Part shown: positions 18,913 to 35,556 of the stretch, in pieces
How the letters are laid out: each line of letters begins with the position of its first letter
Position numbering within the stretch: the first letter of the stretch is position 1
From: Solimonas sp. K1W22B-7
Lineage (GTDB): Bacteria > Pseudomonadota > Gammaproteobacteria > Nevskiales > Nevskiaceae
Length of the DNA stretch: 64,000 nucleotides
Direction: 5' to 3'
NCBI RefSeq assembly: GCF_003428335.1
Contig: NZ_CP031704.1
Coordinates: 1 to 64,000, forward strand
The notes under the pieces: model-generated
Database searches by the model: none
What the model was told of the DNA's origin: nothing
The model's input: the letters and a program-made list of their open reading frames with translations, nothing else
Position numbers and translations under genes: made by a program

Positions 18913-18952
18913 GCCTGAGGATGACGAGCGCCTCGCGACGCCATATCTCACT

Positions 18953-19001: not shown

Positions 19002-19036
19002 AAAAGACACGAGGCGCAAAACACGGGAGAAGAGTG

Positions 19037-19153
19037 GTGTCCGTCCAGCTGATCGTCATCGCCGTAAAGGCAAATGTAAGCGCCCCCTTTCAGAACGGAT
19101 ACGGCTGGGTAGGCGATGACAACCTTGCCATCAAGCACCGCCATGGCGAGACT
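19037..19153 (+). pseudogene. 5' part of a frameshifted hypothetical gene
   Basis: From GTG 19037 (after GGGAGA) a reading frame encodes MSVQLIVIAVKANVSAPFQN followed by GYGWVGDDNLAIKHRHGE, then continues with noise to a stop near 19197. The adjacent frame takes over at about 19150 with DWDADSYSFGWLYDGLTAVG and runs into the hypothetical CDS at 19204. One missing base around 19148-19152 would join them into one protein of about 206 residues. It could be a true inactivation or a sequencing error. Confidence 0.5.
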
Positions 19154-19203
19154 GGGATGCCGACAGCTACTCCTTCGGCTGGCTCTACGACGGACTGACA
19201 GCC

Positions 19204-19656: not shown

Positions 19657-19693
19657 AGCGAGAAGCTGGATACATTTGTTTTACGCTGCGCCG

Positions 19694-19710
19694 AAAATCT
19701 GTCCCCTTTG
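19694..19710 (-). repeat. GGGGACA motif, left edge of the AT-richer cassette
   Basis: Minus-strand CAAAGGGGACAGATTTT. A similar AAGGGGACA motif in opposite orientation lies at 22812-22830 beyond the cassette, and another at about 26936. Such sequences resemble remnants of REP/transposase-associated repeats. Confidence 0.45.
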
Positions 19711-19769
19711 TTTTGTTTCGTCCCTCTTGCTTGCGTTGTTTCGTTGTTTGGAAAATCTAGGGAGCTATC

Positions 19770-20582: not shown

Positions 20583-20606
20583 CGCCTGCAGTTACCGAGA
20601 CTTCAT

Positions 20607-22769
20607 ATGACAAAATTCTTAGTGATAACGGAAGGAGCCGCTGAAGCGGCCCTGTCACAGGGCGAGGTGCAACTTCGCGAACCATTCTTGTCCGAGGGCG
20701 GCGACTACGGCATTACGCGAATGGATGATGCGGCGCATGATGCGGTGGCTTTTGCTACGGCTCGGGATTCGCGCGAGCCAAGATATGCAGTTATCAGCGT
20801 AGATGAACTAAACCGCCTGCCGGCTAAGGCAGCTCGAGATGTATTTGCCCGAATACACAGGGTGTTGAAGGCATCTTACAAGTTCCCTATACGCCTCCCG
20901 ACCTCTTGGTCGGAGTATCACCATCAAAATCGCTTTGCATTCTTTGCTGTGCCGAAAGAATGGGGCAGCTACAGGTGGATTGCTGATTACGATGATCACA
21001 GGAAGTGCGTAAATTTTTCGCAGCTGAGTAGTGCAGCTGGGCCAATAGTGCTTGAGACTCTTCGTCCCGGTACGTCGCCTGATCTCGCGGAGGCATTGGA
21101 AACTGCACTGATAGCGGCGAGAAACGCACGGCGCACGGATACCACTCTGGAATCGTTGGTTAGTCGCGTGGACTTTGATGCAATTGGCGGCGGCGCCATA
21201 TCGAAGTCCTACATGTATGAAGAATGGACCAATAGACTTTCCGCTAGTCAGCAAAAGGTTCTCGAAATACCGCCGCTATCTAGCATACGGATCGTCGGTC
21301 ATGCCGGTACTGGAAAAACTCTAGCACTTTGTCTCAGAACCATTTTCGAATGCCGAAGTGCAGAGAAAGAGAAAAAGCCGATTCGAATTTTATTCACAAC
21401 GCATAGTTGGGCGATGGCAGAGCGCGTTGATGAGACGCTCACCACGTTAAACGGGGGTACGCCCCGCGTTGAGATTACGGTATTTCCTCTTCTACAAATA
21501 CTGATTGACGCGTTGGGAGGTTCTGCGGCCTCCTCACTGAGCATTCTTGGCGATGACTCAACCGATGGTAGAAAGCGGCAAATCGAGATCATAGGAGAGC
21601 TAGTTCAATCTTTTTCTAGCTCAGACCGAAAATCTTTTACGGCAGCGGGGCTTTCAAAGCACATCGCGGAGGCTCTCGACTCAGCCGGTACGTCCATCGA
21701 GCGGGCGGAGCTTGTTGAGGACATATATCAGGAGATTAACGGCGTTCTTTCGGCCGATGCGGTGTCGCTTGGCGATCAGCGCAAGGTTGATGAGTATCTA
21801 AAGCAAGATCGAGCCGACGACATGCCACCCTTCCGGCGAAGAGGCGATAGGCTCCTTGCACTGGCCACATATGGCCGATTTATACACAGGCTGCGAGACG
21901 GTGGTTACGTCACCACAGATCAGCTCGTAAGCGACGTGGTACGGATACTTGAAACCTTCTCGTGGGCCGTTAGGCGAGAAGCGGAGGGATATGACGTAAT
22001 TGTTGTCGATGAGCTACAGCTTTTTGATGCGCAGGAAAGGTTTGCGCTTACGTTGCTAACGCGTTCGCCCCAACAAGCGGCATTCGTAAGCGCGGAAGAT
22101 CCCAGCCAGGGAATCTTCTCCGCCATTTCTCCCGCATGGCGAAAAGGGTTGCCCGAAAAGAAATTGGCGGCACCCATCGAATTTCGCGAGGCGCATCGAT
22201 TCGATGCGGGAGTGCTCCGCTTTGTTACGCATCTTTATCGATGTTTCCCTTTAAACACGCAGGCTATCGCCATAGGAGATACTTCGATAAATTCGGGGGC
22301 AACTCCAGAATTATTCCAAGAGACTACATTGGAAGGTATTGCACAACGCGTTTCTGCAATAGCGATGGAGGAGCAAGCTACACAAGCGGCAGAGGACCGC
22401 CTGGCTATTATTGATCTGGACGGTGCGGCTGAGCCCGTTGCGCGGGCCCTCAACTACAGGGGGTTGAAAGTCACAATACTCCATAGTCTCGATGACGTTG
22501 AAAAGCTTAGCTATTCACGCCGCTCCATTGTGGTTGGGCCGTGGCAGTTTCTTGGAGGCACGCAGTTCACATCTGTTGTTGTTATTAGTCAAAGCGGTAC
22601 CACGTCTAGCAGCACTTTCGGAAGATTGCGAGAGCTGACAGGTGTGTATGTTGCTTCCAGTAGGGCGGCAAAGAGATTGAGCTTAGTCGTCGCCGGGAAA
22701 CTACATCCAGCAATCGAATCTGCCCTCAGTCAAGGGTTAATAAAAAAGGGAGACGTTAAAAAGCATTAA
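20607..22769 (+). CDS. SF1/UvrD-like helicase-domain protein
   Basis: 720-residue ATPase with superfamily-1 helicase features: a Q-like motif LSASQQKVLEIPPLS, Walker A GHAGTGKT at 231-238, Walker B DVIVVDELQ at 463-471 (D468, E469, Q471), and a motif VI-like GVYVASSRAAKRL at 679-691. The first 200 residues (MTKFLVITEGAAEAALSQGE onward) match no helicase domain that I recognise and may be a specific effector or sensor region. Base composition is AT-richer than the chromosome. With the preceding gene it forms a two-gene operon. UvrD-like proteins occur in defence systems such as Gabija, but no GajA-like OLD nuclease is present here. Confidence 0.82.
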   Translation: MTKFLVITEGAAEAALSQGEVQLREPFLSEGGDYGITRMDDAAHDAVAFATARDSREPRYAVISVDELNRLPAKAARDVFARIHRVLKASYKFPIRLPTSWSEYHHQNRFAFFAVPKEWGSYRWIADYDDHRKCVNFSQLSSAAGPIVLETLRPGTSPDLAEALETALIAARNARRTDTTLESLVSRVDFDAIGGGAISKSYMYEEWTNRLSASQQKVLEIPPLSSIRIVGHAGTGKTLALCLRTIFECRSAEKEKKPIRILFTTHSWAMAERVDETLTTLNGGTPRVEITVFPLLQILIDALGGSAASSLSILGDDSTDGRKRQIEIIGELVQSFSSSDRKSFTAAGLSKHIAEALDSAGTSIERAELVEDIYQEINGVLSADAVSLGDQRKVDEYLKQDRADDMPPFRRRGDRLLALATYGRFIHRLRDGGYVTTDQLVSDVVRILETFSWAVRREAEGYDVIVVDELQLFDAQERFALTLLTRSPQQAAFVSAEDPSQGIFSAISPAWRKGLPEKKLAAPIEFREAHRFDAGVLRFVTHLYRCFPLNTQAIAIGDTSINSGATPELFQETTLEGIAQRVSAIAMEEQATQAAEDRLAIIDLDGAAEPVARALNYRGLKVTILHSLDDVEKLSYSRRSIVVGPWQFLGGTQFTSVVVISQSGTTSSSTFGRLRELTGVYVASSRAAKRLSLVVAGKLHPAIESALSQGLIKKGDVKKH

Positions 22770-22811
22770 AAAGTAGTAAGAGCGGAGGGGCGACCGGGAA
22801 CGGCTTAGGCT

Positions 22812-22830
22812 ATAAGGGGACACCATTTAC
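22812..22830 (+). repeat. GGGGACA motif, right edge of the AT-richer cassette
   Basis: ATAAGGGGACACCATTTAC, an imperfect inverted counterpart of the motif at 19694-19710. Nearby AGCGGAGGG (22781-22789) and CCCTCCGCT (22830-22838) form a separate 9-bp inverted repeat. Confidence 0.4.
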
Positions 22831-22873
22831 CCTCCGCTCCGCATGAGCAACATGCAGGGCCAGCTGCAACCGC

Positions 22874-23644
22874 CTACGTCCCCCGCCCCCCGATACACTC
22901 CGCCAGCGCCGCCGGATCCAGCAGCGTGAAGATGCTGTTGTGCACACTGATCCAGCCCAGCCGGCGGAACTCCGCCACTTGCTGGTGGATGCTCTGCCGG
23001 GTCGCGCCCAGCAGCATGCCCAGCTCTTCCTGCGGCAGCTTCACGGGAATGACGATGCGGCCTTCTTCCAGGGTGCCGTAGAGGTAGGCCAGTTGCAGCA
23101 GCCGCTTGGCCAGGCGCGCCCGCACGCTCAGCACGGCCTGGTCCTCGATCAGGCCCAGCAGGCCTCTTACCCAGCGCAGCAGCAGCTCGGTGAACTGCCG
23201 GTAGTAGTGTGGGTGCTCGCCAAGAATGGCGACCAGGTCGGCCCGCCGCAGCAGGCGCGTCTGCGAGTTACAGAAGGCCCGGCAGGTGGAGGAACTCGGT
23301 GCTCCGTCCAGTGCCGAACTGAGCCCCACGCAGCTGCCGGGCTCGAACAGGTAGAGGATGAATTCGTGGCCGTCGGTGGTGACCGTGCTGGAGCGGATCT
23401 CGCCGCTCTCGACAAAGTAGAGGCCGTCGGCCCGCTCGCCCTTGTGGAACAGCACTTCACCCGCGCGGAACGGGCGCGGAACGGTGGCCGCGGCGAAGCG
23501 CTGCAGGAGGTCCGGCGGCAGGTCGCGCATCCATTCCGCCAGGGCGACCGCATCCATGCCCAGCGCGGGCAGCAGATGCCGCGGGTCGCCGGGACGCAGG
23601 GTCTTTGACAAATGTAAAGTTTTTGACAGCGGACCTTGAGTCAC
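22874..23644 (-). CDS. Crp/Fnr-family transcriptional regulator
   Basis: Cyclic-nucleotide-binding-fold regulator with an N-terminal effector domain (FRAGEVLFHKGERADGLYFVE through LFEPGSCVGLSSALDG) and a C-terminal helix-turn-helix (LPQEELGMLLGATRQSIHQQ, then VAEFRRLGWI). It lacks the N-terminal Cys cluster of Fnr, so it is not an oxygen sensor of that type. The annotated start is GTG 23644 (256 aa), with GGGGAGG almost touching it. A later start is possible and would leave an FNR-like box (23605-23618) in the promoter. Divergent from the secreted esterase gene, which it may control. Confidence 0.85.
   Translation of the reverse strand: MTQGPLSKTLHLSKTLRPGDPRHLLPALGMDAVALAEWMRDLPPDLLQRFAAATVPRPFRAGEVLFHKGERADGLYFVESGEIRSSTVTTDGHEFILYLFEPGSCVGLSSALDGAPSSSTCRAFCNSQTRLLRRADLVAILGEHPHYYRQFTELLLRWVRGLLGLIEDQAVLSVRARLAKRLLQLAYLYGTLEEGRIVIPVKLPQEELGMLLGATRQSIHQQVAEFRRLGWISVHNSIFTLLDPAALAECIGGRGT
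23605..23618. promoter_or_regulatory. FNR/DNR-like box
   Basis: TTGACAAATGTAAA differs from the TTGAC-N4-GTCAA form by one base. It lies between (or just inside) the crp/fnr-like gene and the divergent esterase gene, so autoregulation or control of the esterase is possible. Confidence 0.35.
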
Positions 23645-23725
23645 CTCCCCACTATAGACCCCGTCGTCGTGCGGCGACCAGTTCCGGCGGGGTCTTCCCC
23701 CGGCTGACCAAAATGGGGAGAGATC

Positions 23726-24538
23726 ATGAACAAGTTGTTGAAAGTGCTCGGCATGCTGGGCGTGGCCTGGGGTGTTTTGTCGACCGCGCCGGCGATGGCG
23801 CAGCAGGCCTGCAGCCTGGAGCCCACCGCCGGTACGGTGACCCGGACCATCGGCTCGCGCAGCTACACCCTCAACGTGCCGGCCGGCCTGGTGGGCGGCT
23901 CAGTGCCCCTGCTGATCGCCCTGCACGGCGGCGGCTCCAATCCCTCGTTCCACGAGAACGAGACCGGCTGGACGCCCTATGCCGCTTCGCACAACTTCAT
24001 CGTCGCCTACCCGAAGGCACTGAACGCCTGGTGGGATCTCACGGACAACTCGGTCGACACCCCCTTCCTCAAGCAGGTGGCCGCGGACATCTCCAGCCAG
24101 TGGTGCGTGGATCCCAAGCGCATTCACGTGGCCGGCTTCTCGCGCGGCGGCATGATGTCGCATCGCGTCGCCTGCGATGACGACGGCACCTTCGCCTCGG
24201 TGGCGCCGTACGCCGGCTACCTGCCGACCGCGGAGTTCGCCAGCTGCTCTCCCCAGCGCAAGGTGCCGGTGGCAATCTTCCACAGCACCTTCGACCCCAT
24301 CGTGCCTTACTTCCGTGCGACCGCGGCGCGTGATTTCTGGAAGACCAACAACGGTTGCACCGGCTCGGTGACCACCACCGTCAACGGCTCCGCCTTCGAG
24401 CGTTACACCGGCTGCGCCGGCGGCACGGAAGTCTGGCTGCGCCAGTACTTCCAGTCGCACAACTGGCCGTTCGGCAGCGACGCCGACGACATCCGCAACC
24501 GCATGTGGGCGTTCTTCCAGGCTCATCCGCTTCCCTGA
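23726..24538 (+). CDS. Secreted esterase of the PHB depolymerase/LpqC family
   Basis: Predicted exported serine esterase. The 270 residues start with a signal peptide ending near AMA-QQ (residues 1-25), followed by the oxyanion block LLIALHGGGSNP, the nucleophile elbow GFSRGG (S139) and the likely Asp/His region HSTFDPIVPY. The family covers poly-hydroxybutyrate depolymerases, feruloyl and acetylxylan esterases, so the substrate is not certain. GGGGAGAG precedes the ATG. A strong terminator follows. Confidence 0.82.
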   Translation: MNKLLKVLGMLGVAWGVLSTAPAMAQQACSLEPTAGTVTRTIGSRSYTLNVPAGLVGGSVPLLIALHGGGSNPSFHENETGWTPYAASHNFIVAYPKALNAWWDLTDNSVDTPFLKQVAADISSQWCVDPKRIHVAGFSRGGMMSHRVACDDDGTFASVAPYAGYLPTAEFASCSPQRKVPVAIFHSTFDPIVPYFRATAARDFWKTNNGCTGSVTTTVNGSAFERYTGCAGGTEVWLRQYFQSHNWPFGSDADDIRNRMWAFFQAHPLP

Positions 24539-24551
24539 AGGGCCTTGTGAA

Positions 24552-24600
24552 GAGTCCGCTCGTGCCGGGGCTGTCCGGTACGAGCGGACTTTTCTTTTTT
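24552..24600 (+). terminator. Rho-independent terminator
   Basis: AGTCCGCTCGTGCCGG and CCGGTACGAGCGGACT form a long stem (one internal mismatch) followed by TTTTCTTTTTT, 13 bp after the esterase stop. Confidence 0.9.
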
Positions 24601-24785
24601 CACCAACCCGTTCCGCTCCAGGCCCCGGGGCGCCGCATTGAGGCCTCCCCAATGGCGGGCGCATACTCGCTGGCCTCGAATATGCGCCGGGGGAGCGGTG
24701 CCCGCCGGTGTTGCCTGCATCGCCGATCCGCTGACGGGCCCTGCAGTGCTGCGACAGTCAGCGACATCCTGACGGGGAGCATCCG

Positions 24786-25478
24786 ATGAACAAGAACATC
24801 ACGATCGTGCTGGTGCATGGTTTCTGGGGCGGCGCGGCGCACTGGAGCAAGGTGATCGTCGAACTGACGCGCCGCGGCTATGAGTCGATCCGCGCGGTGG
24901 AACTGCCGCTGACCTCGCTGGCCGACGACGCCGAGCGCACCCGCAAGATGCTGGCGCAGGTGCAGGGGCCGGTGCTGCTGGTCGGGCATTCCTACGGCGG
25001 CGCCGTGATCACGCAGGCCGGCGACCTGCCCAATGTCGCGGGCCTGGTGTACATCGCGGCCTTCGCGCCGGATGCGGGCGAGAGCCCGGGCGCCATTACC
25101 CAGCAGCATCCGCCGGTGGCCGTTCCCAATCTTGCACCGGACAGCGACGGCTATCTCTGGGTCAGGCCCGACAAGTTCCATGAAAGCTTCTGCCAGGACC
25201 TGACGCGCGACGAGGCGCTGGTGATGGCGGTGACGCAGAAGGCGCCGCTGGCCAGCACCTTCGGCGATGCCGTGACCGCCCCGGCCTGGAAGAAGAAGCC
25301 CAGCTGGTACCAGATCTCCAGCGAGGACCGCATGATTGCCCCGGCCAACCAGGAGCGCATGTCGGCGCGGCTGGCGGCACGCAAGGTCATCACCCTGGCG
25401 GCGAGCCATGCCTCGCTGGCGTCGATGCCGGCAGAAGTCTCCGCCTTTATCGCCGAGGCCGCCGCCGCGGTGTCGTAA
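24786..25478 (+). CDS. Alpha/beta hydrolase (cytoplasmic)
   Basis: 230-residue alpha/beta hydrolase with the oxyanion motif LVHGFWGGAAHW and nucleophile GHSYGG (S69). The C-terminal half has the DRMIAPANQERM block and a late His (SHASL). It has no signal peptide. It is closely similar in layout to the exported hydrolase at 27056-27829 (shared GLVYIAAFAPDAGES versus GLVYIAAFAPDKGES and PAW..KPSWY), so the two are paralogues. Such proteins often act on small esters or as non-haem peroxidases; the substrate is unknown. Confidence 0.85.
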   Translation: MNKNITIVLVHGFWGGAAHWSKVIVELTRRGYESIRAVELPLTSLADDAERTRKMLAQVQGPVLLVGHSYGGAVITQAGDLPNVAGLVYIAAFAPDAGESPGAITQQHPPVAVPNLAPDSDGYLWVRPDKFHESFCQDLTRDEALVMAVTQKAPLASTFGDAVTAPAWKKKPSWYQISSEDRMIAPANQERMSARLAARKVITLAASHASLASMPAEVSAFIAEAAAAVS

Positions 25479-25597
25479 AGCGGGACCGCAGAGGGGACGG
25501 TCTTACTTGCCGGACAGCCCTGCAAGCTGCTCCGCTGCGTTGCGCGCGCGCCGGGTTGAAAGTGATACTGGATTCGAGGCCGTACCAGGAGAGGCGG

Positions 25598-26323
25598 ATG
25601 GCGATCACGAACACGCAGTCCGGGACCACGGTTCACGAGGTTGCCGACGGGATCTACCGCATCAGCACGCCCGTGGTCATTCCGGGAGGCGGCTTCTCCT
25701 TCAACCAGTACCTCATCGACGACGACGAGCCGCTGCTCTTCCACACCGGGCCGCGCAAGCTGTTTCCGCTGGTACGGGAAGCGGTGGCCAACATCCTGCC
25801 GCTGGAGCGCCTGCGTCACATCGCCTTTTCGCACGTCGAGGCCGACGAGTGCGGCTCGCTCAACGAATGGCTGGCGGCGGCGCCACAGTCTGCGCCCCTG
25901 TGCGGCACGGTCGCGGCGATGGTGTCGATCGGCGACCTGGCGGACCGGCCGCCGCGCGCGCTTGCCGATGGCGAGCTGCTGTCACTGGGCAAGCATTCCG
26001 TCCGGTGGTTCGACGCCCCTCATCTGCCGCACGCCTGGGAATGCGGTTTCCTGATGGACGAGCGGACCGGCACGTTGTTCTGCGGTGACCTGTTCACGCA
26101 GGGCGGCTCCGGGAATCCACCGCTGACCGAGTCGGACATCCTCGGGCCGAGCGAGGCGTTTCGTCACCAGATGGATTACTTCTCTCATACGAAGAACGCC
26201 CGCCCCATGCTGGAGCGCCTGGCCGCCGCCAAGCCGACAACGCTTGCCTGCATGCACGGCAGCGCATGGCGCGGCGATGGCGCGAAGCTCCTGCGCGCGC
26301 TTGCCGATGCGATCTGTGCCTGA
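25598..26323 (+). CDS. MBL-fold protein of ODP (oxygen-binding diiron) type
   Basis: 241-residue metallo-beta-lactamase fold protein. GGAG precedes ATG 25598; an upstream start at 25556 is less likely. The metal motif reads FSHVEADECG (H79, E81, D83), the HxExD form of flavodiiron and ODP proteins rather than the HxHxDH of classic hydrolases. Further ligands are probably in APHLPHAWE, FCGDLFTQGG and ACMHGSAW. There is no flavodoxin domain, so it may be a stand-alone O2- or NO-responsive protein. Neighbours give no pathway. Confidence 0.8.
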   Translation: MAITNTQSGTTVHEVADGIYRISTPVVIPGGGFSFNQYLIDDDEPLLFHTGPRKLFPLVREAVANILPLERLRHIAFSHVEADECGSLNEWLAAAPQSAPLCGTVAAMVSIGDLADRPPRALADGELLSLGKHSVRWFDAPHLPHAWECGFLMDERTGTLFCGDLFTQGGSGNPPLTESDILGPSEAFRHQMDYFSHTKNARPMLERLAAAKPTTLACMHGSAWRGDGAKLLRALADAICA

Positions 26324-26359
26324 TGATTCCCGTTCTTCCATCCGATCCAGGAGCCTGAC

Positions 26360-26923
26360 GTGCTGGCAAGGATTTTCGGCCTGACCCGATCGGTACCTGA
26401 TCTGCGAGCGGCAATCGTGGAGGTGCTGTCGGATATCGCGGGAGAGACGTTGGGGCGCAAGGCGGCCGAGTGCTTCGATGACCCCGAGAGATTTGAACAA
26501 CTCTGCGCTGAGAGTCATACGGAGCCGCCCTGGATGTCGGATGACCGTGACCCGACGCCGGGAGAAAGAGCCGCCGGCATTTTTTTCCAGTTGCTGCAGG
26601 ATGAGGGGCGCTCAGATGTCATCGACTGGGCGTACGGCGGTACGGAGGTGGTCCACGTGATACAGGAGCTCCTGCGGAAAGCCGGTGCGGAATGCTTCGG
26701 CAAGGAAGAGCTCGAGCAGTTCACGGCGCTGGCTGGCAATGCCGGGCGAGGAAAGGCCTTTGCGAAGCTCGATGGGCCGCTGAAGACGGCGGTGCAGAAA
26801 AGAGGGCTGGTACTCGCCTATCTGGACCGGGATGCCGATGCCTACTTCCCGATCCTGGTCTCACCGGAAGTTCATGCGAAGTGGAGCAAGCTTCGCTTCG
26901 ATGCCGATCATCGGATTCTCTGA
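26360..26923 (+). CDS. Hypothetical protein, possibly DUF6630-like
   Basis: 187 residues from GTG 26360, 36 bp after the MBL gene and probably co-transcribed. The protein is soluble and acidic. A loose resemblance to DUF6630-type proteins (GLVLAYLDRDADAYFPILVSP near the C-terminus) is the only hint, and I cannot confirm it. No catalytic motif is evident. Confidence 0.6.
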   Translation: MLARIFGLTRSVPDLRAAIVEVLSDIAGETLGRKAAECFDDPERFEQLCAESHTEPPWMSDDRDPTPGERAAGIFFQLLQDEGRSDVIDWAYGGTEVVHVIQELLRKAGAECFGKEELEQFTALAGNAGRGKAFAKLDGPLKTAVQKRGLVLAYLDRDADAYFPILVSPEVHAKWSKLRFDADHRIL

Positions 26924-26935
26924 GCGGCCGGCGAC

Positions 26936-26970
26936 CCAAAGGGGACCGGACTCGAAGGCGACAGATTTAT
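26936..26970 (+). repeat. GGGGAC/ACAGATTTATT repeat remnant
   Basis: AAAGGGGACCGGACTCGAAG followed by GCGACAGATTTATT. It resembles the motifs at the cassette edges (19694, 22812) and a shorter GAGGGGACGGTCTTACTT near 25491, and looks like a decayed dispersed repeat. Confidence 0.45.
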
Positions 26971-27006
26971 TGACTCCCCCAAGTGCCGCCGCTTGCGATC
27001 CCAACA

Positions 27007-27038
27007 GCAAAACCGGAGCGCCACACGGCGCTCCGGTT
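27007..27038 (-). terminator. Terminator of the exported hydrolase gene
   Basis: AACCGGAGCGCC (27011-27022) and GGCGCTCCGGTT (27027-27038) form a perfect 12-bp stem with loop ACAC. On the minus strand it is followed by TTTTGCTGTT, 18 bp after the stop. Confidence 0.85.
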
Positions 27039-27055
27039 CGATCCGCTTCCTCTTC

Positions 27056-27829
27056 CTACTTTACAGCCCGCGCCGCCTGCTCGATCAGCGCGGCGACCAC
27101 CGCCGGCCTCGACACGTAGACCGCGTGGCTGCCGGCGGTCTCGACCACCTTCGAGCCTGCACGCTGCGCCATGCCCCGCTGCGCCTGCGGCGGGATCATG
27201 CGGTCGTCCTTGGCCACCAGGTACCAGCTCGGCTTGGCGGCCCAGGCGGGCTGGGTGACGGCACCGGTCAGCGCGGCCACGCCCCAGGGCACCTGCGAGT
27301 CCGCCATGAAGGCTGCAGCCGCCGGGTCCACGTCCGCCGCGAAGGAGGCCGCGAACTTGCTGCGATCCAGCAGCAGGAAGCCGTCCTTGGGCGGCAGGAT
27401 CGGCGGCACCGGCGCGCCCGGCACGGGGTTGGCGATCAGCGTGTTCACCGACTCGCCCTTGTCCGGCGCGAAGGCTGCGATGTAGACCAGGCCCTTCACC
27501 TTGGCGTTGTTGCCGGCTTCCGACACCACGACGCCGCCGTAGGAGTGACCGACCAGGATCACGGGGCCGTCGGCCTGGTCGATCGCGCGCTGGGTGACGG
27601 CGACGTCGTCGGCCAGCGACAGGGTCGGGTTCTGGACGATGCTGACGTTGTAGCCGTCCTTCTTCAGGATGTTGTAGACGCCTTGCCAGCCGGCGCCGTC
27701 GACGAAGCCGCCGTGGACCAGCACGACGTTCTTGATGCCCTGGGGGGCGGGAGCGGCCTGGGCAGGGGCCAAACCGGCGGAAGCCAGCAGGGCGGCGGCG
27801 GAGACCAGCAGGGTGCGGAACTTGTTCAT
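27056..27829 (-). CDS. Exported alpha/beta hydrolase
   Basis: 257-residue hydrolase with a signal peptide (MNKFRTLLVSAAALLASAGL, cleavage near AQA-AP). The core has LVHGGFVDGAGW and the nucleophile GHSYGG (S96), with DDRMIPP and a late His (GSHAVYV). AAGGAG precedes the ATG. It is divergent from an OhrR-like regulator and shares with it a region of TTATCGCGATAA operators, so it is probably that regulator's target. The usual partner of OhrR would be the peroxidase Ohr, which is absent here. Confidence 0.86.
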   Translation of the reverse strand: MNKFRTLLVSAAALLASAGLAPAQAAPAPQGIKNVVLVHGGFVDGAGWQGVYNILKKDGYNVSIVQNPTLSLADDVAVTQRAIDQADGPVILVGHSYGGVVVSEAGNNAKVKGLVYIAAFAPDKGESVNTLIANPVPGAPVPPILPPKDGFLLLDRSKFAASFAADVDPAAAAFMADSQVPWGVAALTGAVTQPAWAAKPSWYLVAKDDRMIPPQAQRGMAQRAGSKVVETAGSHAVYVSRPAVVAALIEQAARAVK

Positions 27830-27850
27830 GTCACTTACTCCTTGGTTGTT

Positions 27851-27942
27851 CGCGATAATGTTTATCGCGATAAGTGAATCCTAGAGAGGCGACGGACGCT
27901 TGTCAAGAACAAATTTGCCGCGATAACTAATTTCGCGGTAAT
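27851..27942. promoter_or_regulatory. Operator region between the exported hydrolase and the MarR/OhrR-like gene
   Basis: Perfect palindrome TTATCGCGATAA at 27862-27873, a half-copy CGCGATAATG at 27851, and a second cluster TTGCCGCGATAA (27915-27926) with TTTCGCGGTAA beyond it. Spread over both promoters, they are likely binding sites of the adjacent regulator. Confidence 0.65.
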
Positions 27943-27969
27943 ATGTTGATGTGCTTCGAAATTTGGTGA

Positions 27970-28437
27970 ATGACCATGGCCAAGCCTGCCCCCCGCCCCG
28001 AACCCATCCCCCTGGACGGCCAGCTCTGCTTCTCCCTCTACGGGGCCAGCATTGCCATCAACCGCACCTACAAGCCGATGCTCGACGGCCTGGGGATCAC
28101 CTATCCGCAATACCTGGTGCTGAGCGCGCTCTGGGAGGGCGACGGTCAGACCATCACGGACATCGCCAACCGGCTGGCGCTGGAGCCCAGCACGATCACC
28201 CCGCTGGTGAAGCGGCTGGAGCAGGCGGGGTTCCTGTCGCGCCAGCGCAACCCGAAGGACGAGCGCCAGGTCACCGTGCGGCTGACGGACAAGGGCAAGG
28301 AGCTGCAGCGGGAAACCGGCTGCCTGACCGACGCGCTGCTGCGCAAGTCCGGCATGACGGTGAAGGAAATCATTGCCCTCAACGAGCAGGTGCGGACGCT
28401 GCGCGACGCCTTGGCCAGTGCCATCGCTGCGCAGTGA
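27970..28437 (+). CDS. MarR-family regulator, OhrR-like
   Basis: 155-residue winged-helix regulator. LDGQLCFSLYGASIAINRTY places a Cys at residue 20 in the context that is the peroxide-sensing Cys of OhrR, and a second Cys at 118 (ETGCLTDAL) fits the two-Cys OhrR type. The helix-turn-helix is ITDIANRLALEPSTITPLVK and the wing KDERQVTVRLTDKG. Oxidation of the Cys would release the repressor. Divergent from the exported hydrolase. The ligand, whether organic hydroperoxide or other, is inferred. Confidence 0.85.
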   Translation: MTMAKPAPRPEPIPLDGQLCFSLYGASIAINRTYKPMLDGLGITYPQYLVLSALWEGDGQTITDIANRLALEPSTITPLVKRLEQAGFLSRQRNPKDERQVTVRLTDKGKELQRETGCLTDALLRKSGMTVKEIIALNEQVRTLRDALASAIAAQ

Positions 28438-28554
28438 TGGCGCGGCGCCCAAGGCCCTTCGGAAGCGCGCGGCGCAGGCCCACCGCGCACATGGCGCCGT
28501 AACGCCAGGGCGCTAGGCTTGTCGGTATTCTCCGTGCGCAGAACCCGAAACCCC

Positions 28555-29406
28555 ATGCTCAAGCCCCTGCTCGCCACCGCCCTGCTGACCTTGCTCGCCG
28601 CTTGCTCTTCCAGCGCGCCGCCCGACAGCGACGTGCCCGGCGCCAGCGCCGGGGTGGACCAGGCGATGCGCCAGCACGCGCATGCCCACAACGACTACCT
28701 GCACGAAACGCCGCTGATCGATGCGCTGCAGCGCGGCTTCGGCAGTGTGGAGGCGGACGTGTACCGCACGCTGGGCGGCGACCTCGCGGTGGCGCACAGC
28801 CTCGCGGAGATCCGCCCGGGGCGGACGCTGCGGGCGCTGTACCTGGAGCCGCTGGCGACGCGGGCGAGTTCGGGCGATCTGGTTGCGCAGGGACAGAGGC
28901 TGCAGCTGCTGGTGGACCTGAAGAGCGCCGGGCCGGCAACCTGGCAAATCCTGGAGAGCCAGCTGGCGGAGCATGGCGAGCTGTTCACGCGCTACGACGC
29001 CAGCGGCATGCACCCCGGCGCGGTGGACGTGGTGGTTTCGGGCAACCGGCCGCGCGCGGACATGGAGGCCGCGGCCGTGCGGCGTTCGGCCTACGACGGC
29101 CGGCTCTCGGACCTGGATGATCCGGCGCCGGCGGCGTTCATGCCGCTGATCAGCGCGGACTGGGCGGGGGAGTTCGGCTGGGACGGCAGCGGCGAGTTTC
29201 CGCAGGCCCAGCGGCTCAAGTTGCAGGATGCGGTGCGGCGCACGCATGCGGCCGGCCGCAAGCTGCGGCTGTACGGCACGCCCGACGCCCCTGGCGAGGC
29301 GCGCGACCGCCTGTGGTGCACGCTGCTGGCGGAAGGCGTGGACTGGCTCAACACCGACGACCTGGACGGGCTGCGCGAGTTCTTCCAGCGTGCACCCTGC
29401 GACTGA
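28555..29406 (+). CDS. PI-PLC/GDPD-like phosphodiesterase lipoprotein
   Basis: 283-residue lipoprotein from ATG 28555 (MLKPLLATALLTLLAACSSS; lipid anchor at the Cys). The mature part shows HAHNDYLHETPLIDALQRGF, SVEADVYRTLGGDLAVAH and LLVDLKS, the catalytic layout of the TIM-barrel phosphatidylinositol phospholipase C/glycerophosphodiesterase superfamily (His, Glu-x-Asp, His). Probably hydrolyses a phosphodiester in the envelope. The next gene starts 21 bp downstream. Confidence 0.82.
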   Translation: MLKPLLATALLTLLAACSSSAPPDSDVPGASAGVDQAMRQHAHAHNDYLHETPLIDALQRGFGSVEADVYRTLGGDLAVAHSLAEIRPGRTLRALYLEPLATRASSGDLVAQGQRLQLLVDLKSAGPATWQILESQLAEHGELFTRYDASGMHPGAVDVVVSGNRPRADMEAAAVRRSAYDGRLSDLDDPAPAAFMPLISADWAGEFGWDGSGEFPQAQRLKLQDAVRRTHAAGRKLRLYGTPDAPGEARDRLWCTLLAEGVDWLNTDDLDGLREFFQRAPCD

Positions 29407-29427
29407 TCCCGCCCGGTACTCACCCGC

Positions 29428-29853
29428 ATGAAGCCCTTCGCGAATCCCGCGGTGAAAGAAGCCTTCCAGGCCTTTCCGCCCGATATGCGCAGGAAGCTCC
29501 TGGCCTTGCGTGAGCGGGTCTTCCGCACCGCGGCGGCCACGCCGGGCGTCGGCGAGCTGGAGGAAACGCTCAAGTGGGGTGAGCCGGCCTACGTCACGCG
29601 CTCCGGCAGCGGCAGCACGATCCGCCTGGGCTGGAAGAAGGCCCGTCCCGGCGAGTACGCGCTGTACTTCAACTGCAGGACCACCCTCGTCAGCAGCTTC
29701 AGGGCCTTGTACCCGCGGGACTTCCGTTTCGAGGGAAACCGGGCGCTGGTATTCATGCCGGATGAGGAGCTGCCGCAGGAGGCGCTGGCGTCCTGCATCA
29801 CCATGGCGCTGAGCTATCGGCTGCAGCGCAAGGCCGCACGCGCAAGAGGCTGA
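29428..29853 (+). CDS. DUF1801 domain protein
   Basis: 141-residue protein of the YdhG/DUF1801 type: MRRKLLALRERVFRTAAATP, ELEETLKWGEPAYVTRSGSG and the YALYFNCRTTLVSSFRALYP block are typical. The fold resembles frataxin and some members are linked to iron or DNA, but the family function is unknown. It is translated after the GDPD-like gene on the same transcript, most likely. Confidence 0.8.
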   Translation: MKPFANPAVKEAFQAFPPDMRRKLLALRERVFRTAAATPGVGELEETLKWGEPAYVTRSGSGSTIRLGWKKARPGEYALYFNCRTTLVSSFRALYPRDFRFEGNRALVFMPDEELPQEALASCITMALSYRLQRKAARARG

Positions 29854-29900
29854 TTGCGCCAGGCTCGCCGCGAAACGCGCCGAGGCGCATGCGAAACAGG

Positions 29901-29949
29901 ACCTGACACTCCGTTCAGGTAGACGCTCCTCGCCCGGTAGCTCTAGGCT
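29901..29949 (+). promoter_or_regulatory. lux-box-like promoter 2
   Basis: ACCTGACACTCCGTTCAGGT at 29901-29920, then 23 bases, then TAGGCT at 29944-29949. The box, the AGACG right after it, and the spacing match promoter 1. It heads the RDD-lipoprotein-RDD-DUF4019 gene string. Confidence 0.62.
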
Positions 29950-29977
29950 TGCTGCAATCCCTGCGTTGGTAAAGAGC

Positions 29978-30505
29978 ATGTCGATCGGTGCAAGCGAGCT
30001 GCGCAAGACCTATGACCGCAAGGCGACGGCCGAGCTGGTCGAGTTGAGCGCCAGGGGCGTGCTTACCGAACCCGCGCTGGAGGTCGTCGACCAGGTGCTG
30101 CGCGACCGCGGCGTGTCACCCGCGACGCGCGGCCGGGCCGAGGCTGCGGTGAGGGAGCAGCTGCAGAGGGAGGAGCAGGCACAGCGCATGATCCCGTCTG
30201 CGGGCGAGAAGATCGTCGCCCTGGTCGCCGACAGGGCTATCGCGGTCGGCCTCATCGGGATGGGGCTCATTGCGGCCAGCGCGGGGCTGGAATACGGCGA
30301 CGTGATCGGCGGCCTGTGGGGCACGGCGTACTTCCTGTTGGCCGACGGACTTCCGAACGGGCAGAGCCTGGGCAAGAAGTGGATCAGGCTCGCCGTGGTC
30401 GACGAGCGCAGCGGCAAGCCCTGCACCTACCTGCAAGCCATCGTCCGGACCCTGGTGAATGACGGACTGGCGGGGACGGTTACCATCAGGATCGACCAAA
30501 CCTAG
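29978..30505 (+). CDS. RDD-family membrane protein, C-terminally shortened
   Basis: 175 residues from ATG 29978. An N-terminal soluble helical part (about 1-75: KTYDRKATAELVELSARGVL) precedes an RDD domain with VALVADRAIAVGLIGMGLIA and ADGLPNGQSLGKKWIRLAVV. RDD domains normally continue with about 40-60 more residues holding a last membrane helix; here the frame ends in LVNDGLAGTVTIRIDQT. Either a truncation or a short variant. First gene after lux-box-like promoter 2. Confidence 0.78.
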   Translation: MSIGASELRKTYDRKATAELVELSARGVLTEPALEVVDQVLRDRGVSPATRGRAEAAVREQLQREEQAQRMIPSAGEKIVALVADRAIAVGLIGMGLIAASAGLEYGDVIGGLWGTAYFLLADGLPNGQSLGKKWIRLAVVDERSGKPCTYLQAIVRTLVNDGLAGTVTIRIDQT

Positions 30506-30516
30506 ACTGATGGAAA

Positions 30517-31098
30517 ATGGGTAAAACGACGATGAGTGTCCTGAGAGCGGCCTGCTGTGCCGCGGTATTCCTGCTCGCCGGTTGCGAAACCTACTACCGC
30601 GTCCCAGACCGGGAGCCGACCGCCAGGGTCCGGTTCAAGGCCACGGCACCGGAGCAACCGGTGTTGGTGACAGCCTACAGCTCGCCGCAATGCGACAAGG
30701 ATCCGCCTTCGGGACTGATGGGTGTGCTGGGAGGCATCAACAACGACCCCTTGGGCCGTGTGCCGCCGCAAGTCCGTGAAAGCGGCAACACCCTGGGCAT
30801 GGTCGGTTATGAGGCTGGGCCGGCGACACAGCCGATCGAGCGATTGATTCCTGCAGACCGCAAGTTCGTGTTCGCGATCTTCCGGGTTCAGGTGATGTCT
30901 GCAGCGGTGAAGAGTTGCTGGCTGAGCATGATGTTCGATCCACAGCCTGGCGCACAGTACGAAGTGGAGTACGCGGAGACGGACCAGGCTTGCGGCATAG
31001 GCATCTACCGCCTGCAGCGCGGGCCGGGACAGATCGTCAGCCGGTCGCCGGAGCCTTCTGCGCAGCGAACGCCGGAAGCATGCCCTGGAACCTTCTGA
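30517..31098 (+). CDS. Hypothetical lipoprotein
   Basis: 193 residues with a lipoprotein signal (LRAACCAAVFLLAGCETYYR). It starts 11 bp after the RDD gene. The mature part has several Cys (SPQCDKDPP, VKSCWLSMM, TDQACGIGIY) and is otherwise unlike known families to my reading. Probably an envelope protein acting with its RDD neighbours. Confidence 0.75.
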   Translation: MGKTTMSVLRAACCAAVFLLAGCETYYRVPDREPTARVRFKATAPEQPVLVTAYSSPQCDKDPPSGLMGVLGGINNDPLGRVPPQVRESGNTLGMVGYEAGPATQPIERLIPADRKFVFAIFRVQVMSAAVKSCWLSMMFDPQPGAQYEVEYAETDQACGIGIYRLQRGPGQIVSRSPEPSAQRTPEACPGTF

Positions 31099-31198
31099 CC
31101 AAAGCAGCCAGATCAATTCCCGGGGAAACAGATCTGCCCGCTGCAGAATAAGGAGGAGTTGGCTCTCTTCCTCGCCCAGAACCAGAAAGGAAACAGGC

Positions 31199-32149
31199 AT
31201 GACAGCAGACCCTTCAAGCGAGGCACCACGGATTGCGGGCTTCTGGCGCCGGGTCGGCGCGTTCTTCGTGGATGGCTTGCTGCTCGGTGCCGTTGGCCTG
31301 GTGCTGGGGCTCGGCCTGGCGCCGCAGTTGGCGGAGCTGGGCCCCTGGGGGCGGCTGCTGGGCTTCAGCATCGCCATGCTGTACTTCGTTCCGCTGGACA
31401 GCCGCCTGAGCGGAGGCCAGACACCCGGCAAGCGGCTGCTGAAGATCAGGGTGGTGACGCGCGATGGCAGTCCGCTGTCGCTGTCGCTCTCTCTCCTGCG
31501 CTTCCTGCCCCTGGGCGTACCCTGGTTCCTCAACAACCTGCAGCTGCCGCAGGAGATCATGTTCTCCGGGTGGGGATACCTGCTGACGATCATCATCTTC
31601 GGCGTCGGTCTTTCAAGCGGCTACCTGCTGGTGTTCAACCGCCGTACGCGGCAGGGCCTGCACGATCTGCTGGCGGGGTCGTACGTGGTCATGGCGGGCC
31701 CGTCGGCACCGTTGGAGGTGGCGCGGCCCTGGGCCCTGCACCTGGTGGTTTGCGCGGTGCTGATCGTGGCTTCGGGAGTCCTGCCGTACTTCACGATGCG
31801 GCTGGCCAACGACGAGCCGTTCGTGGGCATTCTCAAGGTGCAGCAGGCCGTGCTGGCGCAAGCGGGCGTGAGGCACGCGCAGGTGACCAAGGGCAAGAGC
31901 TGGTTCTCCAACGGAAGCAGCCAGCAGGAGACCCGCTTCATGGACATGGTCGTCTATGTCCGCGACAGCGATGTGGAGAATCCGGAGCGCGCGAAGCGGC
32001 TGGCCGTGCTCGGTCTTGCCACGGACCCCTCGGCGGCGGCACTGGACAGCATCCGGGTGACCATTGTCCATGGCTACGATATCGGCATTGCCGCGTCCTG
32101 GAAGTCGCAGGCGTACGCACATTCGCCGGCGGAATGGCGCGCACCGTGA
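31199..32149 (+). CDS. RDD-family membrane protein with extracytoplasmic tail
   Basis: 316 residues. The RDD domain occupies about 10-165 (GFWRRVGAFFVDGLLLGAVG, then GGQTPGKRLLKIRVVTRDG, TRQGLHDLLAGSYVV). A further membrane helix (ALHLVVCAVLIVASGVLPYF) is followed by a soluble C-terminal domain of about 115 residues (from QQAVLAQAGVRHAQVTKGKS) that I do not recognise. GAAAGGAAAC precedes the ATG. Confidence 0.8.
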   Translation: MTADPSSEAPRIAGFWRRVGAFFVDGLLLGAVGLVLGLGLAPQLAELGPWGRLLGFSIAMLYFVPLDSRLSGGQTPGKRLLKIRVVTRDGSPLSLSLSLLRFLPLGVPWFLNNLQLPQEIMFSGWGYLLTIIIFGVGLSSGYLLVFNRRTRQGLHDLLAGSYVVMAGPSAPLEVARPWALHLVVCAVLIVASGVLPYFTMRLANDEPFVGILKVQQAVLAQAGVRHAQVTKGKSWFSNGSSQQETRFMDMVVYVRDSDVENPERAKRLAVLGLATDPSAAALDSIRVTIVHGYDIGIAASWKSQAYAHSPAEWRAP

Positions 32150-32174
32150 TGCTGACCCTGTTTCGGAGAGATCG

Positions 32175-33038
32175 ATGAGCAAGGCCGTCAATGCGGTACG
32201 GAGGCGCCGGGATGTGCGCGGCGCATTCATCGCCGCGATGGTTGCGCTGGCCTGGTCCGTCGCCAGTGTCGCCCAGCCGATGCAGGACCGTGTCGCCGAT
32301 CCGCGCGAGCCGGAAGCCATCGCAACGGCTACGGCGTGGCTGGACCTGCTTGCGGCCGGAAAGGCGCAGGAGTCCTACGCCCAGTTCACCGACCTCTTCA
32401 AGCAGCAGGTGACACCGGACGCCTGGCGGACCGACCTCGAGACTTCCACGAAAGCCCTGGGCAAGCTCAGGAGCCGCAAGTTGCGCCGCGTCGTGGTCTA
32501 CAAGGATCCGCCGAATGCCCCGCTGCCCGGGACCTACATGGCAGTGGAGTACGACAGCGTCTACGAGCGCGCCCCCGCGCACTTCCAGTTCGTGGTTCTG
32601 CATTCGGCGCAGGGCGAACCGTTCCGCGTCATGCGCCACGAGTCGACGATGCAGCTCGGCACCGCCGCCAAGAAGCCGGAGCCGGTCGCAGAGACACAGG
32701 GTTCCAGCATTGGCTACAAGACCGTCCAGGAGGCGCTGGCGGCACTCAAGGCCAAAGCCGGGGCGAAGGTCAGCGAGCAGCAGGGCTGGACGATCGTCCA
32801 GGACCAGGATGCCGGGAACATCGCGCTATGGTCCTTCACGCCGCAAGGCCACCCGGCGTATCCCTCTGCAGTGAAGCGATCGGTCGTCGAGCGGGACGGT
32901 GCCCTGCACATCGACATGAAGGTCCAGTGTCAGGCCGGGAAGGAGCCCTGCGATCAGCTCGTCCGTGACTTCATGGCCTTGAACGAGCGCATGAAGGAAG
33001 ACCTGGAGAAGAGGCGGGGGCAGTCGAAGGCGCAGTAG
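32175..33038 (+). CDS. DUF4019 protein, exported
   Basis: 287 residues from ATG 32175 with GGAGAG upstream. A signal sequence (FIAAMVALAWSVASVAQ) precedes a DUF4019 domain: ATAWLDLLAAGKAQESYAQF, QQVTPDAWRTDLETSTKALG, GTYMAVEYDSVYE and FQFVVLHSAQGEPFRV. Function of the domain is unknown. The C-terminal part from about 170 to the end carries an unassigned region with a CQAGKEPCDQ pair. It ends the string that begins at lux-box-like promoter 2. Confidence 0.8.
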   Translation: MSKAVNAVRRRRDVRGAFIAAMVALAWSVASVAQPMQDRVADPREPEAIATATAWLDLLAAGKAQESYAQFTDLFKQQVTPDAWRTDLETSTKALGKLRSRKLRRVVVYKDPPNAPLPGTYMAVEYDSVYERAPAHFQFVVLHSAQGEPFRVMRHESTMQLGTAAKKPEPVAETQGSSIGYKTVQEALAALKAKAGAKVSEQQGWTIVQDQDAGNIALWSFTPQGHPAYPSAVKRSVVERDGALHIDMKVQCQAGKEPCDQLVRDFMALNERMKEDLEKRRGQSKAQ

Positions 33039-33080
33039 CGCAGGGCGCCGCGGCACGATCCCGAATCCTGGGAACGCCCC

Positions 33081-34127
33081 TCAGAACGCCCCCTTCTCCG
33101 GCTCGCCCTGCCACGAGGCGGGATCCGGCTCCCACTCCGCCGAGTAGTCCTGTTCCAGCAGGGCGCAGACGATGGCGCCGAGAGTGGTCCCCAGGCACAG
33201 CATCGCAGCCGCCTGCCCGGCGTCGCGCAGATGGGCCTGGGTCGCAAAGGCCTGGAACGACGCCCAGTCACGCCCCAGCTGCTCGACCATGACGCGCCCG
33301 AGCGTGTAGGAGAGTTCGCAGCCCGCGTCGGCCTGGAGGTAGGCACTGCCGGTCCAGAAGGCCTGGATGCGCTCGGGGTTCCAGTAGGCCTGCATCCTGC
33401 GGTGCATCTGCTGCGGGTAGCCATAGGTGGCCGAGGTCTGCACCAGGCGGGACTCGGTGTTGACGGCGATGCCTTCATTGAGCCACGCGGGGATGGGCAG
33501 GTGCGCGAGGCAGCTGTGCGTCAGCTCGTGTGCGATGGTGGACTCGATGACGGAAAGGTCGTCGAGCAGGGTCAGGAAGTGTCCGCCGCCGACGTTGATG
33601 AACATGCCGCCACTGACGGCGAACTCTCCGTCCCCCGGGTAGTAGTGCGAGACGTACTCGTAGTACTCCTCCTGGGTGTTCAGCACCATGAGCACGGACT
33701 TGCCGCGCTGGGGTGGCGCGGCGATGCCCTTGAGGATGCCGTTGACGAGGCGGCCGCGGGTCGTCTCCAGGTACTTGAGCGAGGCCCGCGCGACGTTGGC
33801 CTCCAGAGAGGACAGCACCAGCGCGTGATCGGAGACGGCCACGTGGTAGTAGGGGCCGAGCATGTGGGCCAGGTGCTCCAGCCAGGCCTGCTGGAAGGCG
33901 GCCCAGCCCGCGCTGCGGGTCTGCGGCGTGGGCAGCGGCGCGAGCGTGGCCTCTATCGCGTCCCAGTCAGCGAACAGGAAGTTGCCGGAGCGCATCAGGT
34001 GCGGGATCAGGTCCACCGCGCCAAGGCCTTCGATCATGACGGTCGGCAGCAGGGGTGGACGCTTGGGGAGCGGCAGGGGCGGCGGAGGCTTTTGCCTGGG
34101 CGCGAAGCGACGGAGGAAATCGAGCAT
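33081..34127 (-). CDS. Putative zinc metallopeptidase (gluzincin-like)
   Basis: 348 residues from ATG 34127. The zinc motif is HELTH (H200-H204), with PAWLNEGIAV placing a likely third ligand Glu about 14 residues later, as in gluzincin peptidases and DUF1570-like proteins. Preceded by VSGGMFINVGGGHFLTLLDD. The Pro-rich N-terminus (PRQKPPPPLPLPKRPPLLP) is not a signal peptide, so the location is uncertain. Its promoter region shares the palindrome at 34189 with the divergent lipoprotein gene. Confidence 0.72.
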   Translation of the reverse strand: MLDFLRRFAPRQKPPPPLPLPKRPPLLPTVMIEGLGAVDLIPHLMRSGNFLFADWDAIEATLAPLPTPQTRSAGWAAFQQAWLEHLAHMLGPYYHVAVSDHALVLSSLEANVARASLKYLETTRGRLVNGILKGIAAPPQRGKSVLMVLNTQEEYYEYVSHYYPGDGEFAVSGGMFINVGGGHFLTLLDDLSVIESTIAHELTHSCLAHLPIPAWLNEGIAVNTESRLVQTSATYGYPQQMHRRMQAYWNPERIQAFWTGSAYLQADAGCELSYTLGRVMVEQLGRDWASFQAFATQAHLRDAGQAAAMLCLGTTLGAIVCALLEQDYSAEWEPDPASWQGEPEKGAF

Positions 34128-34188
34128 GGCCAGAACTCTAGACAAAGCGCTGCGCCGCGCGCAATCGCGGCCGCATTCCGTCACATGG

Positions 34189-34236
34189 ACCTGACGACCA
34201 CGTCAGGTGGACTGCGGAAAAGGCTGGAATTAGCCT
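34189..34236 (+). promoter_or_regulatory. lux-box-like promoter 3
   Basis: ACCTGACGACCACGTCAGGT at 34189-34208 (near-perfect palindrome), then 22 bases, then TAGCCT at 34231-34236. It drives the CC0125-like lipoprotein gene and, being symmetric, could also affect the divergent peptidase. Confidence 0.62.
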
Positions 34237-34300
34237 AGGCGGATATCGCTTTCCAAGCACCAGAACGAACACGATTTCGTCATAGGGAGTCTTTGTGCAC

Positions 34301-34903
34301 ATGAAACGCCTGGCCCTGCTGGCCTGCCTGCTCCTGAGCGGCTGTGCGACCACGTATGGCCCCAACTTCATGACGGGCGGATACAAGGAACGGATGCTGG
34401 CGGAGAACCGCTACATCGTTTCCTTCTTTGGCAACGGCTATGCCCAGGAACAGCGGGTATGGAATTTCTGGATCTATCGCTGCGCCCAGCTGACGGTCGA
34501 GAAGGGATACGATCTGTTCATGCTGGAGCCCTCCAGCGAGCATGCGCTGCTGCAGAACCCGCAGGGCGAGCGGCCCGTCGAGTTCACGATGCTGGATGCG
34601 AGTGCCGGAGAAACCGGCACGCGCGTGCTGCCTGTCCAGTACTACAGCTACTCCGTCACCACCTACTCCTCGAAGGCCGTGGTGAACATGTACAGGCTGC
34701 CGGTGCCGGCGGACATCAATGTCCGTGCGTTGCTGGATGCCAGAAGCATCATGGAGCAGCTGCAGCCGTACATCGACGCCGATGCCAAGATCGAGCCGCC
34801 CGCGCGCAAGGACCTGTTCGTGCGCGCGGCCGTGGAGGCGACGATCAAGGCCAGGGCGCTGGATGCGGAGCAGGCGGACAAGCTGCGCGGGATGGCGATG
34901 TAG
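34301..34903 (+). CDS. CC0125/CC1285-type lipoprotein
   Basis: 200 residues from ATG 34301 with lipobox LLLSGCATTYG. The mature protein matches the CC0125/CC1285 family pattern: GGYKERMLAENRYIVSFFGN, then CAQLTVEKGYDLFMLEPSS. Members are outer-membrane or periplasmic proteins of unknown role. First gene behind lux-box-like promoter 3. Confidence 0.82.
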   Translation: MKRLALLACLLLSGCATTYGPNFMTGGYKERMLAENRYIVSFFGNGYAQEQRVWNFWIYRCAQLTVEKGYDLFMLEPSSEHALLQNPQGERPVEFTMLDASAGETGTRVLPVQYYSYSVTTYSSKAVVNMYRLPVPADINVRALLDARSIMEQLQPYIDADAKIEPPARKDLFVRAAVEATIKARALDAEQADKLRGMAM

Positions 34904-34938
34904 GGAATGGAGGGAACGACGTGGGCCGTGGAGAGGAT

Positions 34939-35541
34939 ATGAGGTTCAAGAACCGCGCTCCCCGGCAGCAGGGGATGTCGCTGCTGTCCGCGCTTCTCCT
35001 GGGAGTAGTGCTCCTGGTGGGCTTTTTCGCCGTGATGCAGTGGCACGACGCAAGCAAGAAGCGGGAGCAGGCGATGCGCGTCGCCGTGGAAGAAGCCAAG
35101 CAGCTGGGGCTTCAGATGGCCGAAGCGCAGGAGAAGCAGCGCCAGCAGCAGGCCGACGAGCAGAGGGTGGCCGCCGACAAGCAACTGCAGCGGCAACGGA
35201 AGAAGGAGGAATTCGACAAGTCCATGTCGGCGCTGTCCTCGCTCCATGCCCGCTGGACGGATGCGGAGAGGCTGGCAGGCAGCGCCGCGCGAATGGACCT
35301 GGTGGCGGCAGTGGAGGGCCTGCAGGCCATCAAGCGGGAGGCCGCCGCGCAAGCGGTATCGGCGTGTCTGGCCCCGGCCAGGGACCTGCTCGTGTCGGGC
35401 ATGGAGAAGGTCATAGAAGGATTCATGGCCATCATGCAGGACGCCGAAGCCGGCAAGGTGCTGGCGCAGGCCAAGGCTGCGGAGGGGCGTACGCTGCTGG
35501 AACGGTACGAACGCGAGGCGGGTGCCTGCCCCTCTCCCTGA
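34939..35541 (+). CDS. Single-span coiled-coil protein
   Basis: 200 residues. One N-terminal membrane helix (MSLLSALLLGVVLLVGFFAV) is followed by a long Gln/Lys/Arg/Glu-rich coiled coil (KQRQQQADEQRVAADKQLQR). GGAGAGG precedes the ATG and the gene follows the lipoprotein gene after 35 bp. Function unknown. Confidence 0.75.
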   Translation: MRFKNRAPRQQGMSLLSALLLGVVLLVGFFAVMQWHDASKKREQAMRVAVEEAKQLGLQMAEAQEKQRQQQADEQRVAADKQLQRQRKKEEFDKSMSALSSLHARWTDAERLAGSAARMDLVAAVEGLQAIKREAAAQAVSACLAPARDLLVSGMEKVIEGFMAIMQDAEAGKVLAQAKAAEGRTLLERYEREAGACPSP

Positions 35542-35556
35542 TCCCGGGCAGGGCGC

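Follow-up and report, generated by a model that had tools for sequence, protein, structure and literature searches.

Computational analysis of the genome of Solimonas sp. K1W22B-7, including a window of 64,000 nucleotides at the beginning of its contig NZ_CP031704.1, reveals a family of palindromic 20-bp boxes that is restricted to one genus, lies between genes and occupies a fixed place in promoters. It is proposed that these boxes are probably the operators of one dimeric factor particular to the genus, which would most likely activate transcription from the -35 region. The genome (labelled G000 here) is a single contig of 5,373,342 bases (5.37 Mb), with dnaA, named by eye, at the start of the window. 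Within the window, the pattern ACCTGA-N8-TCAGGT is present exactly at 18953, 29901 and 34189 and with one mismatch at 9728. In the whole genome, 65 sites with at most one mismatch were found versus 2 for the reversed control, and the exact sites number 23 versus 0. The two lux-box-like palindromes to which the first-pass annotation pointed (exact at 29901-29920 and 34189-34208) are thus real and not a product of chance. The main counts below use 50 placed sites of the 65, namely all 23 exact sites and 27 of the 42 with one mismatch; their consensus is roughly CAACCTGAC-N6-GTCAGGTTG. Three further sites of the 65 surfaced with a search by a 48-base pattern, and one of these later-seen sites (4469819) falls within a long open reading frame of uncertain reality.

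The four genomes of the genus (G000 to G003) carry 23, 9, 11 and 14 exact sites, respectively. Among 57 other genomes of the family or order, six have one exact site each and 51 have none. A 22-base form, searched for in 369 genomes of the class, was found nine times in G000, once in each of six others and not at all in 362. At least three of the four species share the boxes before the PilZ gene, the iron-containing alcohol dehydrogenase (Fe-ADH) gene, metH/DUF1631 and a lipoprotein gene. When orthologous sites were aligned, a set that also includes a box behind a DMT-type gene in two species, the identity was 98.7% for the half-sites, a value inflated by the choice of these sites by box match, 75% for the spacers and 64.8% for the flanks. 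Among the titles listed by the literature searches, none describes the box.

The exact boxes of the window show how the promoters are arranged. Box 1 (ACCTGACACTCCGTTCAGGT, 29901-29920, + strand) stands ahead of an operon of four genes; its last T is also the first base of a -35-like TAGACG (29920-29925, +), and a -10-like TAGGCT (29944-29949, +) follows after a spacer of 18 nt. Box 2 (ACCTGACGACCACGTCAGGT, 34189-34208, +), ahead of an operon of two genes, shares its last T with a -35-like TGGACT (34208-34213, +), from which a -10-like TAGCCT (34231-34236, +) is separated by 17 nt; this promoter has 0 mismatches to the 48-base box-promoter pattern. Box 3 (18953-18972, +) is followed by TAGACG as the -35-like element, a spacer of 18 and TAGTCT as the -10-like element (18996-19001), and behind it lies a low-GC accessory block, an operon with a UvrD-type helicase (19204-22769, +). 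The one-mismatch box (AACTGACCGCCCGGTCAGGT, 9728-9747, +) is located upstream of a surE-like gene. A general promoter scan did not return the box promoters of the window, as expected, because their elements are weak.

The same arrangement recurs across the genome. All 50 placed sites are intergenic, 13 of them between divergent genes, 27 in tandem, 1 between convergent genes and 9 with a neighbour missing; the call tolerates up to 10 nt of overlap at gene ends, and two sites extend 6 nt into one. Genes were called with our own codon-usage caller and not taken from an annotation, and with the same caller random positions fall in genes in 79.5% of cases and between genes in 20.5%, with 1.9% in divergent and 5.9% in convergent settings. 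The -35 hexamer was taken to begin on the last T of the box, and the -10 core was defined as A at position 2 and T at position 6. The 62 sides that face a gene include up to 12 set manually, at genes, many of low GC, that the caller had overlooked. On these 62 sides, the core occurs at spacer 17 in 18 cases and at spacer 18 in 11, the background being 2.5 per offset. Together, 29 of the 62 sides have the core at 17-18, with about 5 expected. The other 33 do not have it there, and some of their sites may be inactive or work otherwise. The 38 sides that face no gene give no peak (3 at spacer 17 and 1 at 18, background 1.1). In the three congeners, the core was found at spacer 17 on 14 of 68 sides over a background of 3.0. 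Permutation gave p=0.0003 for the -10 match, and the 48-base pattern, which joins the box to the -10 core, has 37 matches in the genome at no more than one mismatch versus 0 in the control. The intergenic setting and the fixed spacing to the -10 element therefore argue that the box acts as an operator at a set position in the promoter, and most likely for an activator.

A Pfam scan of 40 proteins encoded behind boxes left 16 without a match at E<=0.01. Among the rest are a PilZ protein, Fe-ADH, DUF1631, tannase, SseB_C and a regulator of the CRP family that has a histidine kinase divergent from it. Boxes also adjoin genes for a ClpB-like protein, a metH-like protein (the latter named by eye) and another RDD protein. 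Close to a box with a CRP-family gene and a hybrid histidine kinase, one frame of 2043 aa (L081:8269-14400) appears by eye to combine a GMC-type oxidoreductase with a hydrolase region and, at the C-terminus, one more domain. At another locus (L022, G000:C1:749617-753352), two homologous proteins of 160 aa, 51% identical, are encoded in tandem, and each gene has its own box with one mismatch some 115 nt upstream. Strong PADLOC matches were obtained behind four boxes, PtuA (2.5e-127), UzuA (1.2e-59), PDC-S06 (3.2e-65) and HEC-04 (8.6e-61), that is, Septu, Uzume and two PADLOC candidate systems. PtuB (5.3e-72) lies behind PtuA, and on its other side the PtuA box has a GajA/OLD-like ATPase (2.1e-24), so that a complete-looking Septu pair in a low-GC stretch (L158:6098-8114) is divergent from the OLD/GajA-like gene across an exact box. 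The enrichment of anti-phage genes is not significant, with 4 of 62 first genes versus 1 of 77 control proteins (p=0.12), where 62 is the number of gene-facing sides and not of proteins scanned, the control consists of proteins near GerE genes, and PtuB and a few second genes, having been chosen for adjoining defence genes, are excluded from the count. The single strong PADLOC match in the control is an RtcR-type regulator. A lipobox is present in 5 of 59 box-downstream proteins versus 2 of 77 in the control (p=0.13). A hydrophobic N-terminus was found in 26 of 59 versus 18 of 77 (p=0.009), the control being lowered here by proteins cut at locus ends.

Seven genes lie between 29901 and 35541, and they form two operons on the + strand and one gene on the - strand. 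The first operon begins with a partial RDD-family membrane protein (29978-30505, +, with an alternative TTG start at 29966; Pfam RDD, E=3.9e-06, profile positions 41-101 of 137) and continues with a lipoprotein of no known family (30517-31098, +; lipobox LLAGC by eye), a second RDD-family membrane protein (31199-32149, +; E=6.3e-22) and a DUF4019 protein with a signal-like stretch at its N-terminus (32175-33038, +; E=1e-19). The second consists of a CC0125/CC1285-family lipoprotein (34301-34903, +; E=4.7e-22) and a coiled-coil protein with a single N-terminal membrane span, seen by eye (34939-35541, +), for which the profile search gave nothing above the family cut-off. The RDD, lipoprotein and DUF4019 genes named in the first-pass annotation are thus present. 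Its zinc peptidase (33081-34127, -), convergent to the first operon, is borne out in part: it has a HELTH motif, but Peptidase_MA_2 reaches just E=0.012, below the cut-off, and a signal sequence is not apparent by eye. The syntenic region was compared over 60 kb in G001 and over 40 kb in G002. At E<=1e-8, all seven genes went unmatched there, while matches were obtained for surE, gltB, gltD, the DMT-type gene, gdpd, bla, nmrA and rrf2; the synteny comparison is limited to these two genomes by the G003 contig, which stops near the rrf2 border. For the lipoprotein at 34301 and the DUF4019 protein, a genome-wide search of the congeners found no orthologue, the other five genes being compared in the syntenic stretches only. 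Family members of the lipoprotein are present in 38 of 60 other genomes, with a best identity of 33-35% over most of the length, and the DUF4019 protein has matches in 7 of 60, all partial or weak. The DMT-type gene and rrf2 lie 16.6 kb apart in G000; in G001 the interval is about 3 kb and in G002 it is 2.3 kb. The corresponding part of the window (18909-35553), not far from dnaA, varies between the genomes, and gdpd and a lactamase-fold gene have changed place. In G001, a box at the equivalent spot behind the DMT-type gene is followed by a CAP12-type TIR-domain gene and a GmrSD_N gene. In G002, part of the DMT-type gene occurs a second time, with a box of two mismatches behind it (reversed stretch, 26141-26517), which looks as if the gene end and the box had been duplicated together.

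These data bear on the view that the seven genes make up one undescribed envelope system under density-dependent control, for which their co-location, the two shared boxes and the exported or membrane nature of the products speak. As far as tested, the cluster appears not to be a conserved unit. Two operons and an antisense peptidase, genes that two congeners lack in the corresponding region and two members without orthologues leave this explanation with very little probability. Scattering or loss of the genes in relatives was named in the first-pass annotation as what would refute it, and to the extent tested this is the case. Shared control is borne out and reinforced, both boxes belonging to a promoter module found throughout the genus; they do not bracket one unit. 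Density-dependent lux control is not borne out. In that reading the boxes would be true lux boxes, answering to a LuxR-type quorum-sensing receptor for acyl-homoserine lactones (AHL). Lux boxes have the half-site ACCTG, as here, and are centred at -42.5. Both kinds of site are two-fold symmetric, 20 bp long and placed at -35 in the promoter region, and the CT(N12)AG core of the palindrome described for known lux boxes (PMC4338825) is present in both. They differ in the position of the centre, which is at about -44.5 to -45.5 here, and in that the genus is without the AHL-binding domain of LuxR, PF03472 being found in 0 of its 4 genomes. Among 61 genomes searched, 16 have this domain and none of the 16 carries more than one exact box. 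A LuxI-type synthase is dispensable for LuxR solos; the sole PF00765 match in G000, which would be such a synthase (1.9e-07), fits the GNAT family Acetyltransf_5 far better (6.5e-31) and adjoins an acyltransferase. Quorum sensing by AHL was rejected on the absence of PF03472 and the nature of this match, and we regard lux boxes proper as extremely improbable.

We give equally little credit to the explanation that the boxes mark accessory insertions, as mobile sites or sites of recombination (REP-like or for cassette attachment). The boxes do cluster near variable loci, and what lies between the DMT-type gene and rrf2 is wholly different in G000 and G001 while the box behind the DMT-type gene is present in both; however, the -10 peak is specific to orientation, divergent settings are in excess and convergent ones lacking, and boxes are kept across species ahead of core genes (PilZ, Fe-ADH, metH/DUF1631). 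A more serious alternative, which we still consider unlikely, is that a repressor of the TetR, GntR or CapW-like kind binds the boxes and obstructs RNA polymerase. It would account for a symmetric operator over the -35 region, and a fixed overlap with -35 is conceivable for a repressor, too. As described in the account of their sites, CapW repressors bind palindromes of about 20 bp in anti-phage promoters, but those sites overlap the -10 element (PMC9122588). The very fixed spacing to -10, together with weak -35 and -10 elements, suggests instead a contact with the polymerase.

We therefore favour the operators of a genus-particular dimeric activator. Its dimeric nature follows from the two-fold symmetry of the box, and a fixed -10 distance over many promoters with poor hexamers argues for an activator bound at -35 and in contact with RNA polymerase. 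In the mechanism proposed, the factor would bind ACCTGAC-N6-GTCAGGT ending on the first -35 base, with the box centre at the position given above, and once bound would compensate for the weak -35 and -10 elements. It would command at least 50 promoters, mostly of accessory genes, among them exported or membrane proteins of no known family, some anti-phage genes and some core genes; the two operons between 29901 and 35541 would be regulated accessory operons brought side by side by chance. Activation over repression, a single regulator, its class and its signal are what we infer on this basis, and our leading guesses for the class are a GerE-type protein without an AHL domain or a WYL-type one. 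GerE-type proteins are plausible from the geometry of the box. G000 encodes 33 of them, several very short, and six loci (L058, L065, L067, L072, L073 and L076) have frames of about 80-155 aa with little beyond the GerE domain, which are possible regulator candidates. A WYL activator such as DriD is plausible as well, its consensus and weak promoters resembling those of the box; a motif scan over stretches totalling 810,908 bases found no WYL gene. DriD is presented in a preprint as a WYL-domain activator of Caulobacter with several poor -35/-10 promoters, the consensus ATACGAC-N7-GTCGTAT and a site centred on -35 at a fixed distance from -10 (PMC12340889). Compared with that description, GAC...GTC, the poor elements and the fixed distance are common to both, whereas the box has N6 instead of N7 and the half-site ACCTGAC instead of ATACGAC, and its last base is the first of -35, which places it roughly a helical turn further upstream.

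Several genes near boxes were considered as the regulator and set aside. The orthologue of a NarL-type response regulator near the box at 5229696 is missing in G001, which has boxes (best match 39%), and a 64% relative is present in G014, a genome without boxes. CRP sites have the geometry TGTGA-N6-TCACA, which does not fit, and the CRP-family gene at the box at 2392759 was rejected. A TetR gene adjoins a one-mismatch site in G001 and G003, and the whole intergenic stretch is conserved there, so the site is little informative. LexA is absent among the genes at placed sites.

A broader reading is more tentative, and we rate it as possible though not probable. A genus-specific global activator that does not respond to AHL may have captured a lux-box-like operator and may recruit newly acquired genes through a box 17-18 nt from a weak -10 element, anti-phage systems and envelope proteins being co-induced by one signal. 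The slot behind the DMT-type gene, where box and promoter are kept and the cargo is swapped (the helicase operon in G000, the CAP12-type TIR and GmrSD_N genes in G001), would then be a plug-in site. Regulator sites at the promoters of defence genes were reported for CapW (PMC9122588), RptR (PMC12255303) and BrxR (PMC9122589), and those of CapW and RptR are palindromic (PMC9122588, PMC12255303). Each of those regulators serves one system or island, as described there, whereas the box is common to more than 50 dispersed promoters and limited to one genus.

For the genus, the finding defines a regulon of genes without known function that have exact predicted promoters, and the box can be used to fish out the regulator. 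It also teaches that quorum sensing cannot be deduced from a lux-box-like sequence: in this genus a strong family of such sites exists and the receptor is absent. If the link to defence is true, it would be a rare case in which one chromosomal operator is common to unrelated, horizontally acquired anti-phage systems and to envelope proteins.
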